A DNA stretch of 64,000 bases from assembly GCF_030286555.1 (NCBI RefSeq), contig NZ_JASVWF010000003.1, forward strand, positions 1-64,000. Reading direction: 5' to 3'. The position numbers were made by a program, and so were the translations under genes. Under the pieces are notes generated by a model that worked only from the letters and a program-made list of their open reading frames with translations, was not told where the DNA came from and made no database searches. This DNA comes from Actinomycetospora termitidis. Lineage in GTDB: Bacteria; Actinomycetota; Actinomycetes; Mycobacteriales; Pseudonocardiaceae. Positions 6,814-38,370 of this stretch are shown one piece after another; the stretch's first letter is position 1, and each line of letters begins with the position of its first letter.

Positions 6814-7579
6814 ATACCCCGCATTCCCCTAGGGCGCGTGGGCACGACACCTCGCGCGTCGTCGACTTTCTTCCCGGACACTTGCGGCCTCCAAACGTCA
6901 CCGGCCGAATCTCTGGATCATTCCGATCCGAGCCGGAGGGGCGGACCATACAAGTCGTGATCCATTGAGGCGACACCGGCGGCCGCGATCGGAGAATGTT
7001 CGGCCGTTCAGCCCTGGACCCGCCCTGGTAAACCATCCGGTGAATGCGCACTGATCCACAGCGAATGCACGAGAAATGCCGAGCAATTGGCTCCGCGACA
7101 GTTCGCAGAAGAATCCTCGCGCTGGACCTGCTGCATCGTCGCGGTTGGTCCGAACACGGAGCACGATCATGTCTCGGACCGGCAACGTCTTCCACGTGGC
7201 GAGAGAGTGGCCCAGATCACTAGAGCATGCGGGCCAGACGACGACGCGTGACGGCCGTCCCGTCGGTGCGCCGTCCGCGCCAACCGACTGCGGCCGTTCC
7301 CCGAGGTGACCGAGTGGTCACGGCGCGAGACCACGACCCGGCGGCGACCCCCGGACATGCCACGGCCCCGTGGTCCCACCCGGGGCAGCGGGAGGGAGCA
7401 CGGGGCCGTGGTGCGGGGAGCGGACGAGCGGGAGGGGATGCCCCGCCGACCGGGTCGGAGTCGGTCGGGAGGGGCGCGTCCCGCGTTCGCCGCGGTGGTG
7501 CCGGACGGGGAGTTCCGGCACCGCCCCGCGTCGTTCGAGCCGGTCGGGGAGGGCCGGCGGACGCGGGGAGGCGTGCGGG
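6814..7579. other. Intergenic region upstream of the gas vesicle operon
   Basis: About 770 bases with no convincing gene. Short frames on both strands (for example 6898-7185 minus and 7076-7309 plus) lack family signatures and normal codon bias. Bases 6840-7170 are noticeably less GC-rich than the neighbourhood and probably contain the gvp promoter, though no clear -35/-10 pair stands out. The distal half contains a 16-base inverted repeat GTGACC-GAGT-GGTCAC (7306-7321) and the large hairpin listed separately at 7360-7411. Confidence 0.6.
7360..7411. terminator. Strong hairpin, probable terminator of the 7580-8170 gene
   Basis: Arms CCACGGCCCCGTG (7360-7372) and CACGGGGCCGTGG (7399-7411) are perfectly complementary, and pairing continues inward (TCCC with GGGA, CCC with GGG) with two mismatches around an eight-base loop. 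It lies about 170 bases downstream of the stop of the secreted protein gene. There is no T-run, as is common for actinobacterial terminators. It could instead be a repeat element. Confidence 0.55.
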
Positions 7580-8170
7580 TTACGAGAAGGAGAGCACGCT
7601 CGGCAGGCCGGCGGGGGCGGCCTTCGCGGCCCAGTGCTGCACGTCGGCCTTGCCGTTGGAGACGGCGTGCTGCACGTCGTCGCCCATCAGGCCGACCTGC
7701 TCCCGCGCCTCGTCGGCGGTCAGGCCGTCCTTCACCGCGGCGGTCCAGTTGTGCTGGGCGTGCGCGATGTCGTTCTTGGCGTTGTCGCCGGCGTGGCCGA
7801 GGTCCTTGACCATGTCCGCGACCGGCAGCTCCGGCAGCGACTCCGCGCTCGGCGCCGACTTCTTCAGCGACTCCGAGACGTCCTTCGCGTGGTGCTGCAG
7901 CTTCTCGCCGTGACCCTTGACCGAGTCGGCGCTGATCTTCTCGGTGCTGACCTTCTTCGAGGCGTCCGAGACCTTGTGCGCGCCCTCGGTGACCTGGTGC
8001 GCCACCTCGTGACCCATGGACTGGGGCGACGGCGCCTCGTGCGCGAACGCCATGGAGGCGGTGCCTCCGGCGACCGCCATGACGGCGGCGGCCGTGAAGG
8101 CGCCCCGTCCGGCGATGCGAGCGGCCTGGGACGCCACGTGGGGAGCGTGGGGAGCGAGATGAGCGCCCAT
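7580..8170 (-). CDS. Secreted hypothetical protein, His-rich and helical
   Basis: A 196-residue protein with a Sec-type signal: polar N-terminus, hydrophobic stretch GAFTAAAVMAVAGGTASMAF and a probable cleavage site AFA-HEA. The mature part is hydrophilic, helical and rich in H, K, A, S and D (for example HEVAHQVTEGAHKVSDASKK, KGHGEKLQHHAKDVSESLKK), recalling apolipoprotein-like or LEA-like amphipathic proteins. No cysteines and no recognised domain. It sits alone between gatB and the gas vesicle operon, with its own upstream region and a hairpin downstream. Function unknown; export is the only firm prediction. Confidence 0.6.
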   Translation of the reverse strand: MGAHLAPHAPHVASQAARIAGRGAFTAAAVMAVAGGTASMAFAHEAPSPQSMGHEVAHQVTEGAHKVSDASKKVSTEKISADSVKGHGEKLQHHAKDVSESLKKSAPSAESLPELPVADMVKDLGHAGDNAKNDIAHAQHNWTAAVKDGLTADEAREQVGLMGDDVQHAVSNGKADVQHWAAKAAPAGLPSVLSFS

Positions 8171-8380
8171 GCGGAAGGCCTCCTCCTATCGGTGTCTACA
8201 GATACGACCTGTCGGCGGATCAAGCACTGATCCGACCGGAGCCTCGGCTACGAGCCGTTCTCCAAGGACTCCAACGGGTGAGCACCGTGTTGGTTACGGA
8301 TCGGTCACGACGCGTCGAGAAAGGTCGTCCTCGTCACTCTGGGCGACCGGGGGCCACGATCAGTGATCATCTTCGGACAC

Positions 8381-8427
8381 ACGAACGGCACTCTCGCTGC
8401 ATCTACGTGCGCGAGAGTGCCGTTCGT
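8381..8427. terminator. gatB: Perfect 17-bp hairpin downstream of gatB
   Basis: Left arm ACGAACGGCACTCTCGC (8381-8397) pairs perfectly with GCGAGAGTGCCGTTCGT (8411-8427) across a 13-base loop. It lies 16 bases beyond the gatB stop on the minus strand, the expected place for the terminator of the gatC-gatA-gatB operon. The remainder of the 8171-8443 gap holds the probable promoter of the secreted protein gene and no ORF. Confidence 0.75.
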
Positions 8428-8443
8428 TCGGGAGGGGGGTGGG

Positions 8444-9961
8444 TCAGGCCCCGGCGGCCACCCGCTCCAGCACCAGCGACTGCACGCGGGCCGCGTCGGC
8501 CTGCCCCCGGGTCGCCTTCATGACCGCGCCCACGATCGCGCCGGCGGCCTTCGTCTTGCCCGCCCGGATCTTCTCCGCGACGGCGGGCTGCGCGGCCAGG
8601 GCCTCGTCGACCGCGGCCGTCAGGGCCGAGTCGTCGCTCACGACGGCGAGCCCGCGGCCGGCGACGACCTCGTCGGGCGTCCCCTCCCCCGCCAGCACGC
8701 CGTCGACGACCTGGCGAGCGAGCTTGTTGGTGAGCGTGCCCTCGGCCACCAACGCGATCACCCGCGCGACGTCCGTGGGCGTGATCGCGAGCTCCGCGAG
8801 CTCCACGCCCGCCGTGTTGGCCTGCTGGGTCAGGTAGGACACCCACCACGACCGGGCCGATTCCGCCGGTGCCCCCGCCTCGACGGTGTCCGCGACGAGG
8901 TCGAGTGCGCCCGCGTTGACCAGGTCGCGCAGCTCCTCGTCGGAGAGGCCCCAGTCGGTCTGGATGCGGGCCCGGCGTTCCCACGGCCGCTCCGGCAACC
9001 CGGCGCGCAGCTCCTCCACCCAGGCGGCCGACGGCTCGATCGGCACCAGGTCGGGCTCCGGGAAGAAGCGGTAGTCGGCGAAGGTCTCCTTCGGGCGCCC
9101 GGCGGAGGTGGTGCCGGACTGCTCGTCGAAGTGCCGGGTCTCCTGGGTGATCGTGCCGCCGGAGAGCAGGACGCCGGCGTGGCGGCCCATCTCGTAGCGG
9201 ACCGCCCGCTCGACCGAGCGCAGCGAGTTGACGTTCTTGGTCTCGGTGCGGGTGCCGAACTCGGTCGTGCCCTTCGGCATCAGCGAGACGTTCGCATCGC
9301 AGCGCATCGAGCCCTGGTCCATGCGGACGTCGGAGACGCCCAGGCCCTGGACCACGTCGCGCAGGGCCGAGACGTAGGCCCGCGCGATCTCCGGGGCGCG
9401 CGTCCCCGCCCCGAGGATCGGCTTCGTGACGATCTCGATGAGGGGCACGCCCGCCCGGTTGTAGTCGAGCAGGGAGTACGAGGCGCCGTGGATGCGGCCC
9501 GTCGCCCCGCCCATGTGCAGCGACTTGCCGGTGTCCTCCTCCATGTGCGCCCGCTCGATCTCCACCCGCCACGTCGTCCCGTCGTCGAGGGGCACGTCGA
9601 GGTACCCGTCGAAGACGATCGGGTCGTCGTACTGGGAGATCTGGAAGTTCTTCGGCATGTCCGGGTAGAAGTAGTTCTTCCGGGCGAAGCCGCTGCGCTC
9701 GCGCACCTGACAGTTCAGCGCCAGGCCGATCTTGACGGCGCCCTCGACCGCGCGGCCGTTGACCCGCGGCAGCGAGCCCGGCAGCCCCAGGCACACCGGG
9801 CAGACGTTCGTGTTCGGCTCGGCGCCGAACTCGTTGCGGCAGCCGCAGAACATCTTCGTCGCGGTGTTGAGCTCCACGTGCACCTCGAGCCCCATCACGG
9901 GGTCGAAGCGCTCGCAGACCTCCTCGACGGTGTAGGGCGCCGCGTCGACGGTGCTGGTCAT
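8444..9961 (-). CDS. gatB: Aspartyl/glutamyl-tRNA amidotransferase subunit B
   Basis: A 505-residue GatB. The N-terminal kinase domain shows [20 protein letters not shown], the zinc-site cysteines CGC and CPVC at about residues 43-65, and [20 protein letters not shown]; the YqeY-like C-terminal tail ([20 protein letters not shown]) binds tRNA. GatB phosphorylates the side chain of misacylated Glu-tRNAGln or Asp-tRNAAsn before transamidation. ATG at 9961 overlaps the gatA stop (ATGA). Order gatC-gatA-gatB on one strand gives a complete amidotransferase. Confidence 0.96.
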
Positions 9962-11478
9962 GCGTTCTCCAACACAGCTGGGTCCGGGATGGTGGAGGCG
10001 AAGGGGGTTCCCGACGACGTGTCCCGGGCCAGTTCGTAGGCGGCCGCGACCCGGTAGGCGCGGTCGTCGGCGAGGGCGGGGGCCATGACCTGCAGCCCCA
10101 CCGGCATCCCGTCGTCGGCGGAGAGACCGCACGGCACCGAGAGCCCGGCGTTGCCGGCGAGGTTGGTCGGGATCGTGCACAGGTCGGCGAGGTACATCGC
10201 GACGGGGTCGTCGACGCGGTCGCCGATCGGGAACGCCGTCGTCGGGACCGTCGGGGAGACGAGCACGTCGCAGTCCTCGAACGCGGCCGCGAAGTCCCGC
10301 ACGATCAGCGTCCGGGCCTTCTGCGCCTTGCCGTAGAGCGCGTCGTACGAGCCCGCCGACAGGGCGTGGGTCCCGATCATGATGCGGCGCTTCACCTCGG
10401 GCCCGAAGCCCGCCTCCCGGGTCAGCGACATGACCTGGTCGGTCGAGTGCGACCCGTCGTCGCCGACCCGCAGGCCGTAGCGCATCGCGTCGAAGCGGGC
10501 GAGGTTCGACGACGCCTCGCTCGGCGCGATGATGTAGTACGCCGGCATCGCGGCGGTGAACGACGGGCACGAGACCTCGACGACCTCCGCGCCCAGGTCG
10601 GTCAGCACCCGCACCGCGTCGGTGAACGCCGCGAGCACACCGGGCTGGTAGCCCTCGCCGGACAGCTCCGTGACGACACCGACCCGCACCCCGGCGAGGT
10701 CCCCGCGGGCGCCCGCCAGCGCGGCCTCCACGACCGGCGGCAGCGGCGCGGCGATCGAGGTCTGGTCGGCCGGATCGTGCCCGCCGACGACCTCGTGGAG
10801 CATCGCGGCGTCGAGCACGCTGCGCCCGAACGTGCCGATCTGGTCCAGCGAGGAGGAGAAGGCGACCAGGCCGTAGCGGGACACCGTGCCGTAGGTCGGC
10901 TTCACCCCGACGAGGCCGGTGAAGGCACCGGGCTGCCGGATCGACCCGCCGGTGTCCGAGCCGAGCGCGAGCGGCGCCTCGCCCGCGGCGGTCGCAGCGG
11001 CGGACCCGCCGCTCGAGCCGCCGGGCACCCGCGAGGCGTCCCACGGGTTGCGCACCGCACCGAAGGCGGAGTTCTCGTTCGACCCGCCCATGGCGAACTC
11101 GTCGAGGTTGGTCTTGCCCAGCGGCACGAGTCCGGCCTCGCGCAGGCGGGTCACCACGGTGGCGTCGTAGGGCGGACGCCAGCCCTCGAGGATGCGTGAG
11201 GCGCAGGTGGTGGGCATGTCGGCGGTCGCGATGTTGTCCTTGACCGCGACCGGCACGCCGGCCAGCGGGCCGCGGATCGTGCCGGCGGCGATCTCCTCGT
11301 CGATCGCGGCGGCGGCGGCGAGCGCGCCCTCGGCGTCGACGTGCAGGAACGCGTTGAGCGAGCCGTCGACGGCCTCGATGCGGGCCAGGTGCGCGCGGGT
11401 GACCTCGACCGAGGACACCTCGCGGGCCTGCACCCGGCGGGCGATCTCGGCGGCGGACAGGCGGGTCAGCTCGGTCAC
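9958..11478 (-). CDS. gatA: Aspartyl/glutamyl-tRNA amidotransferase subunit A
   Basis: A 506-residue amidase-signature protein. It contains the catalytic Lys region [20 protein letters not shown], the Gly/Ser-rich signature ([16 protein letters not shown]) and the nucleophile stretch [20 protein letters not shown]. The Ser-cisSer-Lys triad releases ammonia from glutamine for transamidation by GatB. GTG at 11478 is chosen because it overlaps the gatC stop (GTGA) and gives the family start [15 protein letters not shown]. In M. tuberculosis pfkA separates gatA from gatB; here they are adjacent. Confidence 0.96.
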
Positions 11479-11771
11479 TGCGACTCCCCCAGGATGCGCG
11501 GCACGCGGAAGCGGCCCTCCTCGGCCTCGGGCGCGCCGGCCAACGCGGCCTCGCGGGGCAGGCTCGGCGCGGGCTCGTCGGGGCGCAGCACGTTGGTCAA
11601 CGGGGCGACGTGGCTGGTCGGCGGCACGTCGTCGGGGATCTCGGAGACGCGACCCACGGTGTCGAGGATCGCGTCGAGCTGGCCGGAGAACACGTCGAGC
11701 TCGTCGTCGGTGACGGCCAGGCGGGCCAGGCGGGCCAGGTGCGCGACGTCGGAGCGCGTGATGTCGGACAT
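11475..11771 (-). CDS. gatC: Aspartyl/glutamyl-tRNA amidotransferase subunit C
   Basis: A 98-residue GatC with the usual pattern: [40 protein letters not shown] and [20 protein letters not shown]. GatC wraps around GatA and stabilises the GatAB interface. ATG at 11771 has GGAGG at a suitable distance. It is the first gene of the operon; two small GC hairpins (11800-11817 and 11819-11836) lie in its leader. Confidence 0.95.
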
Positions 11772-34077: not shown

Positions 34078-34605
34078 TCAGGTACGGCGGCCGAGCGTGC
34101 GGTGGATCAAGATGATCTCTGCAGTATTCGTGCGGCCCGGCCGTCGTTCGACGTGGACCTCGTCGACGAAGCACGTCTCGGCGATCGCATGACGCTGCCG
34201 CGCGAGGTCGTCGACGGTGAGGCCCACCGGAATCCACACGCGGACGACCGTCGCGCCGGGCATCGCGGAGCTGTCGATCACGCTCGGGGTGAGCCGACGG
34301 TGCCGGCTGCAGATCCCGAGTTCGAGGAACGCCTGCTGGAGCCGGCGCGACATCACGATCCGCCGCCACTGCCCGAGCACCATCTCACGCACCTCCACCG
34401 ACAGCAGGGTCACCAGAAGCAGAGCGACGACGAGCAGGCGCGGCCAGGAGCCGGACCCGAGCCAGAGGGAGAAGCCGAGCGCGCCCAGGAGGGTCCCGAG
34501 CTCGATCTCCGTGCGGTGCCGGAGCACCACCCGGTGCGGCGCGCGGGGCTTGCGCGGCTGCGGACGTTCGCCCCAGTCCCCGGGGTCGAGCCGCCGGGCA
34601 CTCAT
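34078..34605 (-). CDS. Membrane protein with C-terminal domain resembling the N-domain of actinobacterial FtsK/TraB-like proteins
   Basis: A 175-residue protein with one or two hydrophobic segments (IELGTLLGALGFSLWLGSGS and WPRLLVVALLLVTLLSVEVR) and a cytoplasmic domain MPGATVVRVWIPVGLTVDDL, ARQRHAIAETCFVDEVHVER, TNTAEIILIHRTL. That last pattern (hydrophobic strand, G-L-T-x-D-D, helix, C-x3-EVHVER) recalls the pre-motor domain of FtsK/TraB-like translocases of actinobacterial integrative elements, but no ATPase motor follows. ATG at 34605 preferred over a frame to 34698. Divergent from the HTH-toroid gene. Resemblance is a personal impression, unverified. Confidence 0.5.
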   Translation of the reverse strand: MSARRLDPGDWGERPQPRKPRAPHRVVLRHRTEIELGTLLGALGFSLWLGSGSWPRLLVVALLLVTLLSVEVREMVLGQWRRIVMSRRLQQAFLELGICSRHRRLTPSVIDSSAMPGATVVRVWIPVGLTVDDLARQRHAIAETCFVDEVHVERRPGRTNTAEIILIHRTLGRRT

Positions 34606-35034
34606 GTGCCACCGCCGTAGGACCACGGACCGAACGAACCAACACCTTCCATCACTGCCTACCCCCCGACTGCCTACTTTCGGGAACATCTGCAGCATGG
34701 CTGCCCGACATACGCCTACGTAATGCCTACCTCACGGCGTTGGCCGAATCGTTGCCAACTGCACCGGTGTAGGTAGATCACCTACCTATGCCCCTTGCAC
34801 CCTGGACGAGGTCGCAATGAGGTCGCGGGGAGGTCACACCCTCGCGACGGCGTCACGGCGGGATATGGGAGTCTGCGCGCCATTACCTGGTGCAACGGGG
34901 GAATCATGGCGCAGGTCGTCCTCGGGGAATCATCACTCGGACGCTTGTCTACCGGTGAGTCACGGTGGAAAGGGACGAAGGTAGCGCCTACCCTACGTCT
35001 CCATGGCTCGTGTCCTACCTACTGCACTCCGGTG
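34606..35034. promoter_or_regulatory. 430-base divergent control region with GCCTAC words and a 19-base palindrome
   Basis: GCCTAC occurs at 34657-34662, 34672-34677, 34714-34719 and 34725-34730, and again near 34986. At 34770-34788 is the palindrome TAGGTAG-ATCAC-CTACCTA (perfect seven-base arms), whose arms contain the same word reversed. The region is less GC-rich than flanking genes. It lies between the membrane protein gene and an XRE-type regulator, so autoregulation is plausible. An alternative in-frame ATG at 34906 with GGGGGAA upstream exists for the regulator, but codon bias between 34906 and 35034 is poor. Confidence 0.6.
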
Positions 35035-35035
35035 A
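35003..35035 (+). CDS. Possible leader peptide MARVLPTALR overlapping the regulator start
   Basis: ATG at 35003 begins a ten-codon frame whose TGA (35033-35035) overlaps the ATG of the HTH-toroid gene as TGATG. TACCCT (34989-34994), a fair -10 element, lies just upstream and would give a nearly leaderless transcript. Translation could be coupled to the regulator gene. Ten codons could easily arise by chance. Confidence 0.25.
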   Translation: MARVLPTALR

Positions 35036-36267
35036 TGCCGGCCGAGCCGCGCCGACGCGAAAGCGCTTTCGGTACCGCTCTCCTCACCGCCCGGCGACGC
35101 GCAGGTCTGACGCAGACTGCGGTCGCGGAGCACCTCGGCGTGCAGCGGGCGATGGTGTCGCAGTGGGAGACCGGGCGACACCGCCCCTCCCAGGTCAACG
35201 TCGACAGACTCGGTCGACTCCTCGACGCGACGGAGGAATTGACCGCGGCAAGTGGGCTGACCACCCCGGCGGAGGGTCCACCGGCGATCGTTCCCGCGAC
35301 GGAGGCACCGTCGGGCACAACCCTGTACGACGTACATCGCGGCCTGGGCCGGGTCCTCGTCGAGGCACTCGTGCACGACGACGACGGGCGACCGTCGGGG
35401 TGGCGACGCGATTTCCGCCCCGACCGTCCCCCGAGTGCCTTCACGACGGCGTCCGCGATGCGCCTCCTGACGGCCATCCAGGACCCGCCGTACGTCGACC
35501 GGCACGCCCTCGGTGAACGGCTCCTCGAGTTCCACTATCCCGAGGGTGGATGGGGCACGAGGGCGATCGGTCGCCGCCCCGAGGCGACGGCCGTCGTCAT
35601 CGACGCGTTGGAGCGGATCGGCGCCACCTTCGACATCGACGAGGCACTGCACGAGCTCGCCACCATGCTGAGCGAGTCGGACCGGCAACACACCTACGTG
35701 CTGGTCGAGGCCCTGAGTACGACGGCCCGACTCCGACCGACCTCCGACCTGGCCCGTGAACTCGCAGCGCACCTGCTCGCCAACCGGGACGCCAGGAGTC
35801 TCGCCTGGCCGGAGAAGCGCCCGGCCGTCCCGGGCGCCGTCCCACGGCCGTCGACGGCCCACACGGCGCGCGCTCTGACCGTTCTCTCGTACGGGCTGGA
35901 ACGTGGTCTCGACGATCCCGACGGCGAGTACCTCGGCGCGATCGAGTCGGGACAACGGTGGCTCGAGGAGAACGCGAACCTCGCGCCGATCCGGGAGAAC
36001 GTCGAGCCGGAGGGGCAGCGCGACCTCGAGATCCGGCACTTCACCCCAGCGCTCGTGGCGCACGCCCTCGCGTCGGTCCGGTCGCCGTCGTGGGATCTGC
36101 TGGCGCGAGCGCTCGCCGAGGTGTGGCGGTCCTACAACTCGTCGATCGAGCGCTGGCAATGGCCGAACGGGGACGTTCCGGTCTGGCTCCAACTCGATGC
36201 CCTCCGCGCGGTGACGGCGGCCCACGCCCGACAGACGATGGTGCCGATCGAGGGTGGAGAGCAGTGA
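35035..36267 (+). CDS. XRE-type HTH protein fused to an alpha/alpha-toroid (terpenoid-cyclase-like) domain
   Basis: A 410-residue protein. Residues 12-66 are an XRE helix-turn-helix: FGTALLTARRRAGLTQTAVA, EHLGVQRAMVSQWETGRHRP. After a proline-rich linker (to about 105) comes a helical region of toroid type: LLEFHYPEGGWGTRAIGRRP EATAVVIDAL, QHTYVLVEALSTTARLRPTS, STAHTARALTVLSYGLERGL and GAIESGQRWLEENA, typical of prenyltransferase/squalene-cyclase repeats. No DxDD cyclase motif is visible, so the toroid is probably a ligand- or protein-binding domain. The stop overlaps the first cupin start (GTGA). Confidence 0.65.
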   Translation: MPAEPRRRESAFGTALLTARRRAGLTQTAVAEHLGVQRAMVSQWETGRHRPSQVNVDRLGRLLDATEELTAASGLTTPAEGPPAIVPATEAPSGTTLYDVHRGLGRVLVEALVHDDDGRPSGWRRDFRPDRPPSAFTTASAMRLLTAIQDPPYVDRHALGERLLEFHYPEGGWGTRAIGRRPEATAVVIDALERIGATFDIDEALHELATMLSESDRQHTYVLVEALSTTARLRPTSDLARELAAHLLANRDARSLAWPEKRPAVPGAVPRPSTAHTARALTVLSYGLERGLDDPDGEYLGAIESGQRWLEENANLAPIRENVEPEGQRDLEIRHFTPALVAHALASVRSPSWDLLARALAEVWRSYNSSIERWQWPNGDVPVWLQLDALRAVTAAHARQTMVPIEGGEQ

Positions 36268-37115
36268 TACCGGCAGCCGGCACGCATCTCTCGGTTCTCG
36301 AGATCGCGGACATGGTCGGCACCCGGCCGGAGGTCGAGGAGCTCGAGCACGCGATGACGTTGGTCCGCGAGAGCGGGCCCTCGGTGGCGGAGCTGTTGAA
36401 CTCGGCGCTCAGTCAGCCGCTCCTCGCCCAGGTGACGTCCCGGTCCTACCTGCATCCCAACGGCTTCGCCAAGATCGTCCTGCACGACGCGGGCCCGACC
36501 GGGACCTCCGTGCGGTTGCACGTCTGGCCTGCCGTCGAGAACCCTTCACCGGAGGACCTGGCGAACCGGCGCGACTCCGCCCCGCACGGCCACCGCTGGA
36601 ATTTCGCCTCCACCCTGATCGCGGGCAGTGGCCTGCTCGTCGAGGAGTTCGAGGTGCACCACGTCGACGACGACACCGTGGTCGACCCGGGCGAGACAGT
36701 GTGGGACGAGATGATGTTCCGGCCGTCCGTGACCGCCTCCCTCGTGCCGCACGGCAAGGCCCGCCTCACGTGCCGCGAGTACTGGGTGCGCGACCCCATC
36801 CGTGACATCTACTGGTGCGATGTGACCGACGTCCACACCATCGGCCCCATCGACGCCGACATGACGGCCACGCTCGTCCTCCAGGGCCCCGAGGTCCGAC
36901 CGACCGCGGCGGTCTACCGGCGACCGGACAGCCCTGCGGATCCCGGCCGGCGGACTCTGGCGGAGCACGAGATCGCGGAACTGATCCAGACCGTGCTCGC
37001 CGCGATCGGCGGCCCGCGGTCACCGGAGCGGACCGAGCCCGCGGTCGGCGGGCGCATGGTCGCCGTCGGTCCGTCGACGACGGAGCTGGAGATTCTCGGA
37101 CGACCTACTCTCTGA
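36264..37115 (+). CDS. Three-histidine cupin-like protein, paralogue 1
   Basis: A 283-residue protein not assigned to a named family. A helical N-terminus (to about 60) is followed by a beta-rich domain: SYLHPNGFAKIVLHDAG, TSVRLHVWPAVENP, then APHGHRWNFASTLIAGSGL with H108-x-H110, and YWCDVTDVHTIGPID with H191. Two close His plus one His on a later strand is the cupin metal pattern of thiol-dioxygenase-like proteins (3-His); the acidic ligand of ordinary cupins is absent. A tail of about 60 residues follows. GTG at 36264 overlaps the HTH-toroid stop, indicating co-expression. Confidence 0.6.
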   Translation: MIPAAGTHLSVLEIADMVGTRPEVEELEHAMTLVRESGPSVAELLNSALSQPLLAQVTSRSYLHPNGFAKIVLHDAGPTGTSVRLHVWPAVENPSPEDLANRRDSAPHGHRWNFASTLIAGSGLLVEEFEVHHVDDDTVVDPGETVWDEMMFRPSVTASLVPHGKARLTCREYWVRDPIRDIYWCDVTDVHTIGPIDADMTATLVLQGPEVRPTAAVYRRPDSPADPGRRTLAEHEIAELIQTVLAAIGGPRSPERTEPAVGGRMVAVGPSTTELEILGRPTL

Positions 37116-37150
37116 CGAGCGGGAGCGGTCCGAACGGGGGTGGTGCGGAC

Positions 37151-37858
37151 GTGGACGGGAGCAGCGCAGCACGACGTCTGGTCGATCTCGATTCGACCCT
37201 TCCGGCGCTCGCGGCGCCCGACCCGACGGTCGACCAGCTCGCCGACATCGTTCAGGCGTTGCAGCAGACCGACGCCCTCGCCCGGACGTTGCGCGAGGTC
37301 GGTGGCGACATCACGGCCTCCGCTGATCTCGGGGCGCACTCGAGCTGGCACCCCCTCGGATTCGCCAAGTTGCAGCTCGGGGCGCTGCCCGGCACGGAGG
37401 TGCGGCTTCGGCTGCACGTGTGGGCGGACTCCGGGCACGCCGTCCGGACCCAGGACGATCCGCACTCGCATCGGTGGCGCTTCGCGTCGACCGTGGTCTG
37501 GGGTGCGCCGCTCCGCGTGGTGCATTTCGAGGAGTCCGAGGCGGGCCAGGAGTTCCATCGGTTCGAGTACGCGCCCCCGTGCGGAGCACTCCATCCTGCG
37601 GGTCGACGCTCGTTGAGCGCGGTGGACCGGTCCGAGCGACGCCGGGGCGAGCTCTACCGGTGCGAGCGCGGGACGGTCCACACGATTCAGCCGGTCGATC
37701 CCGGTCTCCTCACGACGACGCTCATCGCGCGGGGCCCGGACCGAGGCGAGTCGACGCCGGTCTACCGACGGGACGACGATGCGGTGATCTCCGAGCGACC
37801 TCATCTCTCGGGAGCCGAGGTCCAGAGGCTCCTCGAGCGCGTCCTGCCGCCCGACTGA
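37151..37858 (+). CDS. Three-histidine cupin-like protein, paralogue 2
   Basis: A 235-residue paralogue of the preceding protein, colinear with it: SSWHPLGFAKLQLGALPGTE, VRLRLHVWADSGHAV, DPHSHRWRFASTVVWGAPL (H105, H107) and YRCERGTVHTIQPVD (H177), ending TPVYRRDDD where paralogue 1 has AAVYRRPDS. The N-terminal helices (TVDQLADIVQALQQTDALAR) also match. It lacks the C-terminal tail of paralogue 1. GTG at 37151 follows GGGGGTGG, 35 bases after paralogue 1. Both probably bind iron or a similar metal; substrate unknown. Confidence 0.6.
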   Translation: MDGSSAARRLVDLDSTLPALAAPDPTVDQLADIVQALQQTDALARTLREVGGDITASADLGAHSSWHPLGFAKLQLGALPGTEVRLRLHVWADSGHAVRTQDDPHSHRWRFASTVVWGAPLRVVHFEESEAGQEFHRFEYAPPCGALHPAGRRSLSAVDRSERRRGELYRCERGTVHTIQPVDPGLLTTTLIARGPDRGESTPVYRRDDDAVISERPHLSGAEVQRLLERVLPPD

Positions 37859-37860
37859 TG

Positions 37861-38370
37861 TCAGTCCGGGCGGCGGTGACGGCCACCGGCGTCGCGGACC
37901 GGGTGGGGGGCACGGGCCGGACCCGGCGTCGGCGCCGACGGCAGCGCCAGTGGAGCGCGGGAGGCGGCGATCGCCTTCTGCGTCGGGGGCGCCATCCCGG
38001 AGCGCAGGAGTCGGACCAGGGCCTCGTACCACTGGACCAGCACGGCCCACGGAGTCGGCTGCGGTGGGCGCGACTCACGGCGGCGGCGCGTGACGGCTTC
38101 ACGGCAGGGTCGGCAGACGTGCGCCGCGACCGCGCCCAGCGGGGCCATGTCCACCGCGACCCCGCACAGGGCCATCGGTGGCTGGCCGGTGCGGTTCGCC
38201 TGCTCGAGCTCGGTGGCCATCACGGCGTGTTCGGAGCGGTCGGCCCGCGAGGTCATCGACAGCGGACGGTCACCGGGTACCGGAGGCGGCCAGGATCCCC
38301 AAGCGCCGGCGGGACGCTCCCCGACCGTCGATCGCGCGTCGGTTGCCGTTCGGCGCGCGTCGGTGGTCAT
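37861..38370 (-). CDS. Hypothetical protein with a CG...H-x-C-x2-C zinc-finger-like segment
   Basis: A 169-residue protein, convergent with the second cupin gene (two bases apart). The middle reads MALCGVAVDMAPLGAVAAHV CRPCREAVTRR, a C-x(18-20)-H-x-C-x2-C arrangement like small actinobacterial zinc-finger proteins. Flanks are low complexity and Arg/Pro/Ala-rich, with no signal peptide. ATG at 38370 is preferred over an upstream start at 38505 inside a hairpin. Function unknown. Confidence 0.5.
   Translation of the reverse strand: MTTDARRTATDARSTVGERPAGAWGSWPPPVPGDRPLSMTSRADRSEHAVMATELEQANRTGQPPMALCGVAVDMAPLGAVAAHVCRPCREAVTRRRRESRPPQPTPWAVLVQWYEALVRLLRSGMAPPTQKAIAASRAPLALPSAPTPGPARAPHPVRDAGGRHRRPD

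Follow-up and report, generated by a model that had tools for sequence, protein, structure and literature searches.

What is the role of a DNA-binding protein that carries a toroid domain and is encoded directly ahead of two cupins? This question is raised by four genes, termed M, R, C1, and C2 here, in the 64,000-nucleotide stretch of Actinomycetospora termitidis DNA analyzed in this work (contig NZ_JASVWF010000003.1, positions 1 to 64,000; the window). We tentatively consider them, at slightly less than an even chance, to be the trimmed form of a self-regulated actinobacterial sensor-enzyme unit. The linkage of the genes, the predicted folds, the conserved histidines, and CCTAC repeats in the DNA are the computed part of this model, and they lend partial support to the first-pass annotation of the locus, which had proposed one regulated unit combining ligand sensing with metal-dependent oxygenases. 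R (35035 to 36267, plus strand, ATG start, 410 amino acids) and C1 (36264 to 37115, plus strand, GTG start, 283 amino acids) are open reading frames (ORFs) that overlap through GTGA, and the GTG of C2 (37151 to 37858, plus strand, 235 amino acids) follows 35 bases after the C1 stop. M (34078 to 34605, minus strand) is transcribed divergently from R across a spacer (34606 to 35034) that holds the repeats and is the candidate operator region. Its longest ORF begins at 34698; when an internal ATG is taken as the start, M has 175 amino acids, including a hydrophobic stretch judged by eye; neither a Pfam nor an NCBIfam family could be assigned to it. A further gene, Z, is convergent, and the ORF coordinates bear out the gene order, overlap, gap, and orientations that had been annotated.

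R was found to combine two domains. Residues of about 12 to 71 form an XRE helix-turn-helix (HTH) with Pfam matches to PF13560 (E 3.4e-12, over the cut-off) and PF01381 (E 3.2e-10), and residues of about 94 to 405 form an alpha/alpha toroid that is confident in the predicted structure. The fusion of an XRE domain with a terpenoid-cyclase-like toroid is thus confirmed, by Pfam for the HTH and by the predicted structure for the toroid, for which Pfam gave no match and a profile search against the sequences of solved structures nothing convincing. R is predicted to share this fold with class II terpene cyclases such as squalene-hopene cyclase (SHC) and drimenyl diphosphate synthase, but its toroid is fused to an HTH or, in other members, to putative membrane helices, and the DxDD motif is theirs and not a family motif of R. 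DxDD was present in all seven SHC rows of the comparison set and absent from 16 of the 18 R-family rows, including that of the window, whereas the remaining two carry it at differing positions. Seven of eight SHC rows and eight of ten cysteine dioxygenase (CDO) rows were kept for these comparisons, and the misframed L156, L159, and L167 were left out. The sequence similarity between toroid and SHC is weak (12% and 11%), and since the aligned region differed between the two comparisons, it was not used to place residues.

C1 and C2 are paralogues, as annotated (32% identity over 192 residues, E 3e-20), and have the same three histidines, which are invariant across 75 aligned cupins. Their cupin fold is confident in the structure models and thiol-dioxygenase-like, so that the structure prediction proposed as a check by the first-pass annotation gave confident models for toroid and cupin alike. 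Thiol dioxygenases (CDO, MDO, ADO, mercaptosuccinate and ergothioneine dioxygenases, and YubC of B. subtilis, 4QM9) also combine a cupin barrel with three histidines in the order H-x-H ... H; C1 and C2 differ from them by extra N-terminal helices, apparently by T-x-V-x-Q on the last strand, and by the lack of a convincing sequence match. Neither cupin matched a Pfam family, PF05995 included, the cupin profile found nothing convincing among the sequences of solved structures, and its comparison with eight CDO homologues gave a probability of 0.2%; a weak PHROG match (E 0.006) was also recorded. In the tree, C1 and C2 fall into separate, old clades with metagenomic relatives (support 1.0 each), which rules out a recent duplication as their origin. 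Among the loci of its family, the window is alone in having two cupins. However, P0015 (C2-like) and P0021 (C1-like), located on contigs of equal size (1796), suggest another two-cupin locus.

The link between toroid and cupin was assessed in 297 genomes of the window's family, in 297 genomes of the Streptomycetaceae, and in a class-wide sample of 394 genomes. In the window's family, the toroid profile matched in 22 genomes and the cupin profile in 46. All 22 toroid genomes have a cupin directly downstream (E < 1e-56), and the other 24 cupin genomes hold only weaker cupins (E > 1e-44) and no toroid match; this E-value gap is partly built in, because the profile was seeded with window-like cupins, some from the same genomes, but adjacency is unaffected. 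The Streptomycetaceae toroid, likewise found in 22 genomes, is followed by a cupin in 21, within about 0.25 kb in 19 of them and after 0.86 to 1.04 kb in G780 and G809; G803 has a weak partial toroid match and no cupin match. Cupin matches occur in 45 genomes of this family, 24 of which lack a toroid, and the score fails to separate linked from unlinked copies. The class-wide sample contained the toroid in 6 genomes, including that of the window. Recurrent co-occurrence, named in advance as support for a system, is therefore seen for the toroid-cupin pair in two actinobacterial families, whereas the opposite expectation, that cupins usually occur without the HTH-toroid gene, holds for the wide superfamily (about half of the genomes) and not for the close cupins. 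One toroid locus, L058, has no cupin nearby as far as could be found, and radical SAM (Pfam-confirmed, 1466 to 2530) and PfkB genes adjoin its toroid gene. A radical SAM gene was also seen by eye near a toroid-less cupin in L150 (4180 to 5265). The gap between toroid and cupin in G780 (L171, 2301 to 3176) and G809 (L176, 2469 to 3221) is occupied by an endonuclease/exonuclease/phosphatase-like gene, identified by eye, which begins where the toroid gene ends.

Most loci of the window's family are fuller than the window. In 23 loci from the 22 genomes, a count that leaves out a decayed second copy in G192 and includes the short contig L132, M is upstream and divergent in 19; 16 of the loci encode a dCTP-deaminase-like (DCD-like) protein and 17 a ThiL-like one, and L125 retains a remnant of the DCD-like gene. 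In L055, Pfam identified DCD (PF22769, E 1e-25) and AIRS (PF00586, E 3e-19). Among solved structures, dCTP deaminases were matched with E 2.5e-13 and thiamine-monophosphate kinases with E 2.6e-23. All 17 translated DCD rows contain S-x-x-A-R-x-G followed by LTLE or ITLE; in the translated ThiL rows, NLSDLAAAG and DVSDGL are present in 11/11, GGD-x-x-DG in 10/11, and GFGDDCAVL in 4/11. An M-like gene lies downstream of the ThiL-like gene in L130 (10121 to 10567) and L131 (10089 to 10514), the latter having no upstream M. The decayed copy in G192 (L145, contig C10, 5730 to 6355) consists of toroid, cupin, and DCD fragments in a row.

The spacer between M and R offers a clue to regulation. In the window, it contains CCTAC or its complement 11 times as compared to 1.3 expected, a count reached by none of 1000 dinucleotide shuffles, as well as the inverted repeat TAGGTAG-ATCAC-CTACCTA at 34770 to 34788. 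An excess of CCTAC (P <= 0.004) was detected in the spacer of 21 of 24 loci, which are not independent since those of one Amycolatopsis-like genus (g16) are close kin, and for which the spacer limits in the relatives are approximate; in 20 of the 24, the densest 400 bases for CCTAC of the whole stretch fall in the spacer. For a pooled test, 15 of the 24 loci were used; nine g16 loci, namely, eight close relatives and L125, were dropped, and L134 and L057 were kept. Without the window, the remaining 14 contain 81 copies versus 14.9 expected, which ranks CCTAC first of 512 5-mers, and control stretches elsewhere in the same loci contain 11 versus 6.6 and 10 versus 4.7. Facing copies (CCTAC then GTAGG, 5 to 10 bases start to start) occur in 10 of the 13 loci listed, the spacers of G003 and G014 have direct repeats of CCTAC, and the count is only 0 to 2 in the regions preceding two Streptomyces toroid genes and four XRE genes that adjoin M paralogues. 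Palindromes at the promoters of their own genes are common binding sites of XRE proteins (PMC12565409).

In the sensor-enzyme model, R would bind the CCTAC repeats through its XRE domain and thereby control both divergent transcripts. The toroid, a terpene-cyclase-like ring devoid of DxDD, may offer a small ligand a binding pocket and so allow it to switch R, and the cupins, as putative Fe-dependent oxygenases of the thiol-dioxygenase kind, would make, alter, or clear this ligand. Where DCD-like and ThiL-like proteins are encoded as well, they may add steps on a related phosphate-bearing compound; given such deaminase- and kinase-like steps, the ligand is perhaps nucleotide- or phosphate-bearing. 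The core would be toroid plus cupin with a variable front end, namely, the HTH here and putative membrane helices in those Streptomycetaceae copies for which the start was read. An extended form of this model, which we regard as unlikely, is that toroid and cupin are the core of an undescribed actinobacterial signaling system, in which the acid-less cyclase-like ring serves as sensor, the front ends are exchangeable (XRE, membrane helices, or a place beside a VMAP conflict system), and the cupin, with the DCD-like and ThiL-like enzymes, makes or clears a nucleotide- or thiol-derived signal.

Several observations weigh against the sensor-enzyme model, and some of them speak for a biosynthetic unit instead. 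The toroid would then itself be catalytic, resembling an epimerase or a cyclase but with a novel active site, and would make a small molecule together with the cupin, DCD-like, and ThiL-like proteins, and the HTH would add only feedback control. The best structural matches of the toroid model are indeed enzymes, namely, sugar epimerases, and Arg, Glu, and His residues are invariant in the toroid alignment, polar residues that are also compatible with an enzyme. Furthermore, toroid and cupin are linked without an HTH in four Streptomycetaceae proteins whose starts were read (L140, L142, L171, and L176) and in Bailinhaonella, all with hydrophobic N-terminal stretches as judged by eye; transcription control therefore cannot be the sole role. 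The conserved DCD-like and ThiL-like motifs are in line with synthesis as well. We nevertheless hold this explanation to be rather doubtful, since the toroid lacks DxDD, the CCTAC repeats point to a regulatory R, and a related toroid is found beside a VMAP conflict system with no cupin detected (L059, see below). The sensor-enzyme model is also weakened by the absence of DCD and ThiL from the three Actinomycetospora loci (the window, as determined for DCD by profile search, G003, and G014). SxHxY is an outer-sphere motif that is a feature of CDO; it was found in seven of the eight CDO rows, with SVHVF in the other, and seems, from sequence, to be replaced in these cupins, which carry T-x-V-x-Q near the same place as judged with no residue-level alignment. 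L125 (P = 0.19) and L057 (P = 0.20) show no significant excess of CCTAC and L134 (P = 0.014) a weak one, and a genome-wide scan of 12 genomes with a triple CCTAC pattern did not settle a wider regulon. This pattern matched in 7 of the 12. The M-R spacer was among the matched sites only in G003 and G014; in the window and the other genomes, the CCTAC copies of the spacer differ in spacing or orientation and therefore escaped the pattern. Relative to a reversed control, matches numbered 4 to 0 in G003, 7 to 0 in G014 (several overlapping in one repeat), 2 to 2 in G000, and 7 to 29 in the other nine genomes summed.

Another explanation starts from the HTH. R has an XRE helix-turn-helix with PF13560, and M-like paralogues adjoin other XRE genes in the genus, so that R might be a Scr1/WhiJ-style regulator, with pleiotropic control of development or antibiotics, an incidental toroid, and the cupins as ordinary target genes. 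The XRE-DUF5753/DUF397 pairs (Scr1/Scr2 and relatives; PMC10364602) resemble this locus in that an actinobacterial XRE regulator carries a variable domain at its C terminus and is followed by a partner gene, but here a toroid replaces DUF5753 and a cupin replaces DUF397. Pfam matched neither DUF5753 nor DUF397 in M, R, C1, C2, or Z, and the toroid-cupin link persists even without an HTH, which leaves this explanation very improbable.

Turning back to the sensor-enzyme model, XRE regulators, cupins, and toroids are each already known, and the titles and abstracts of the open-licence literature searched describe neither the toroid-cupin pairing nor the exchangeable front ends nor the five-gene form. 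The model concerns a tightly linked gene pair, unnamed by Pfam, NCBIfam, and PADLOC beyond the HTH, in two well-sampled actinobacterial families, and its predicted operator is directly open to experiment. If the toroid is a sensor, a cyclase fold has been reused for ligand sensing, and the genes linked to it, for the cupin and for deaminase-like and kinase-like proteins, point to a small molecule.

Of 18 genomes of the genus, three contain R and C, and close M homologues are confined to these three. In G003 and G014, M-R-C lies between amidohydrolase and Z, the close M homologue being divergent from R; in G001, amidohydrolase and Z adjoin, with about 86 bases between match ends. To the right of Z, the genes of the window are common to G014, and G003 and G001 gave no match in the stretch examined. 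The flank genes of G014 and G003 are mostly 77 to 96% identical to those of the window, as compared to 39 to 43% for R, 34 to 38% for the cupins, and 46 to 63% for M. In g16, a common flank was found on the left in 10 of 13 loci and on the right in 7 of 13; R is 77 to 96% and many flank genes are 90 to 99% identical, and L129 to L131 have no flank gene of the reference. These patterns fit a rapidly diverging module that was gained, lost, or replaced in some lineages. Composition gave no signal of the transfer suggested by the first-pass annotation: G+C at third codon positions is 0.84 to 0.90 for M, R, C1, and C2, as compared to a mean of 0.915 (standard deviation 0.072) for a roughly defined set of 36 other long ORFs.

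This patchy presence and the divergence relative to the flanks would also suit an anti-phage or other conflict system, with R as the sensor of an invader-linked signal, the DCD-like enzyme depleting or altering nucleotides, and the cupin acting oxidatively on a target. A different, related HTH-toroid protein in L059 (Amycolatopsis pretoriensis, 7578 to 11540) directly precedes an EAD2/VMAP protein and a MoxR-like AAA gene, which recalls the VMAP ternary conflict systems of Kaur et al. 2020 (PMC7159879). However, no cupin was found in L059, Pfam matched neither VMAP nor MoxR nor vWA in the five window proteins scanned (M, R, C1, C2, and Z), and the locus proteins have no PADLOC family apart from matches to the HTH part. 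As DCD, the gene that marks a dCTP-deaminase nucleotide-depletion defence, is moreover missing in the window and a common flank is kept in 10 of the 13 g16 loci, a conflict system appears improbable.

Z (37861 to 38220, convergent to the C2 side, 119 amino acids) was ruled out as a member of the unit, because five of the eight genus genomes that possess it lack R and C; its annotated convergent position stands, and the label zinc-finger-like has no Pfam or NCBIfam support. Five weaker M paralogues were found elsewhere in the three module-bearing genomes and in G001 and G013. In the Actinomycetospora-like loci L047 to L051, of which L047 belongs to the window's own genome, M-like paralogues lie near XRE genes that by eye resemble the DUF5753/DUF397 type.
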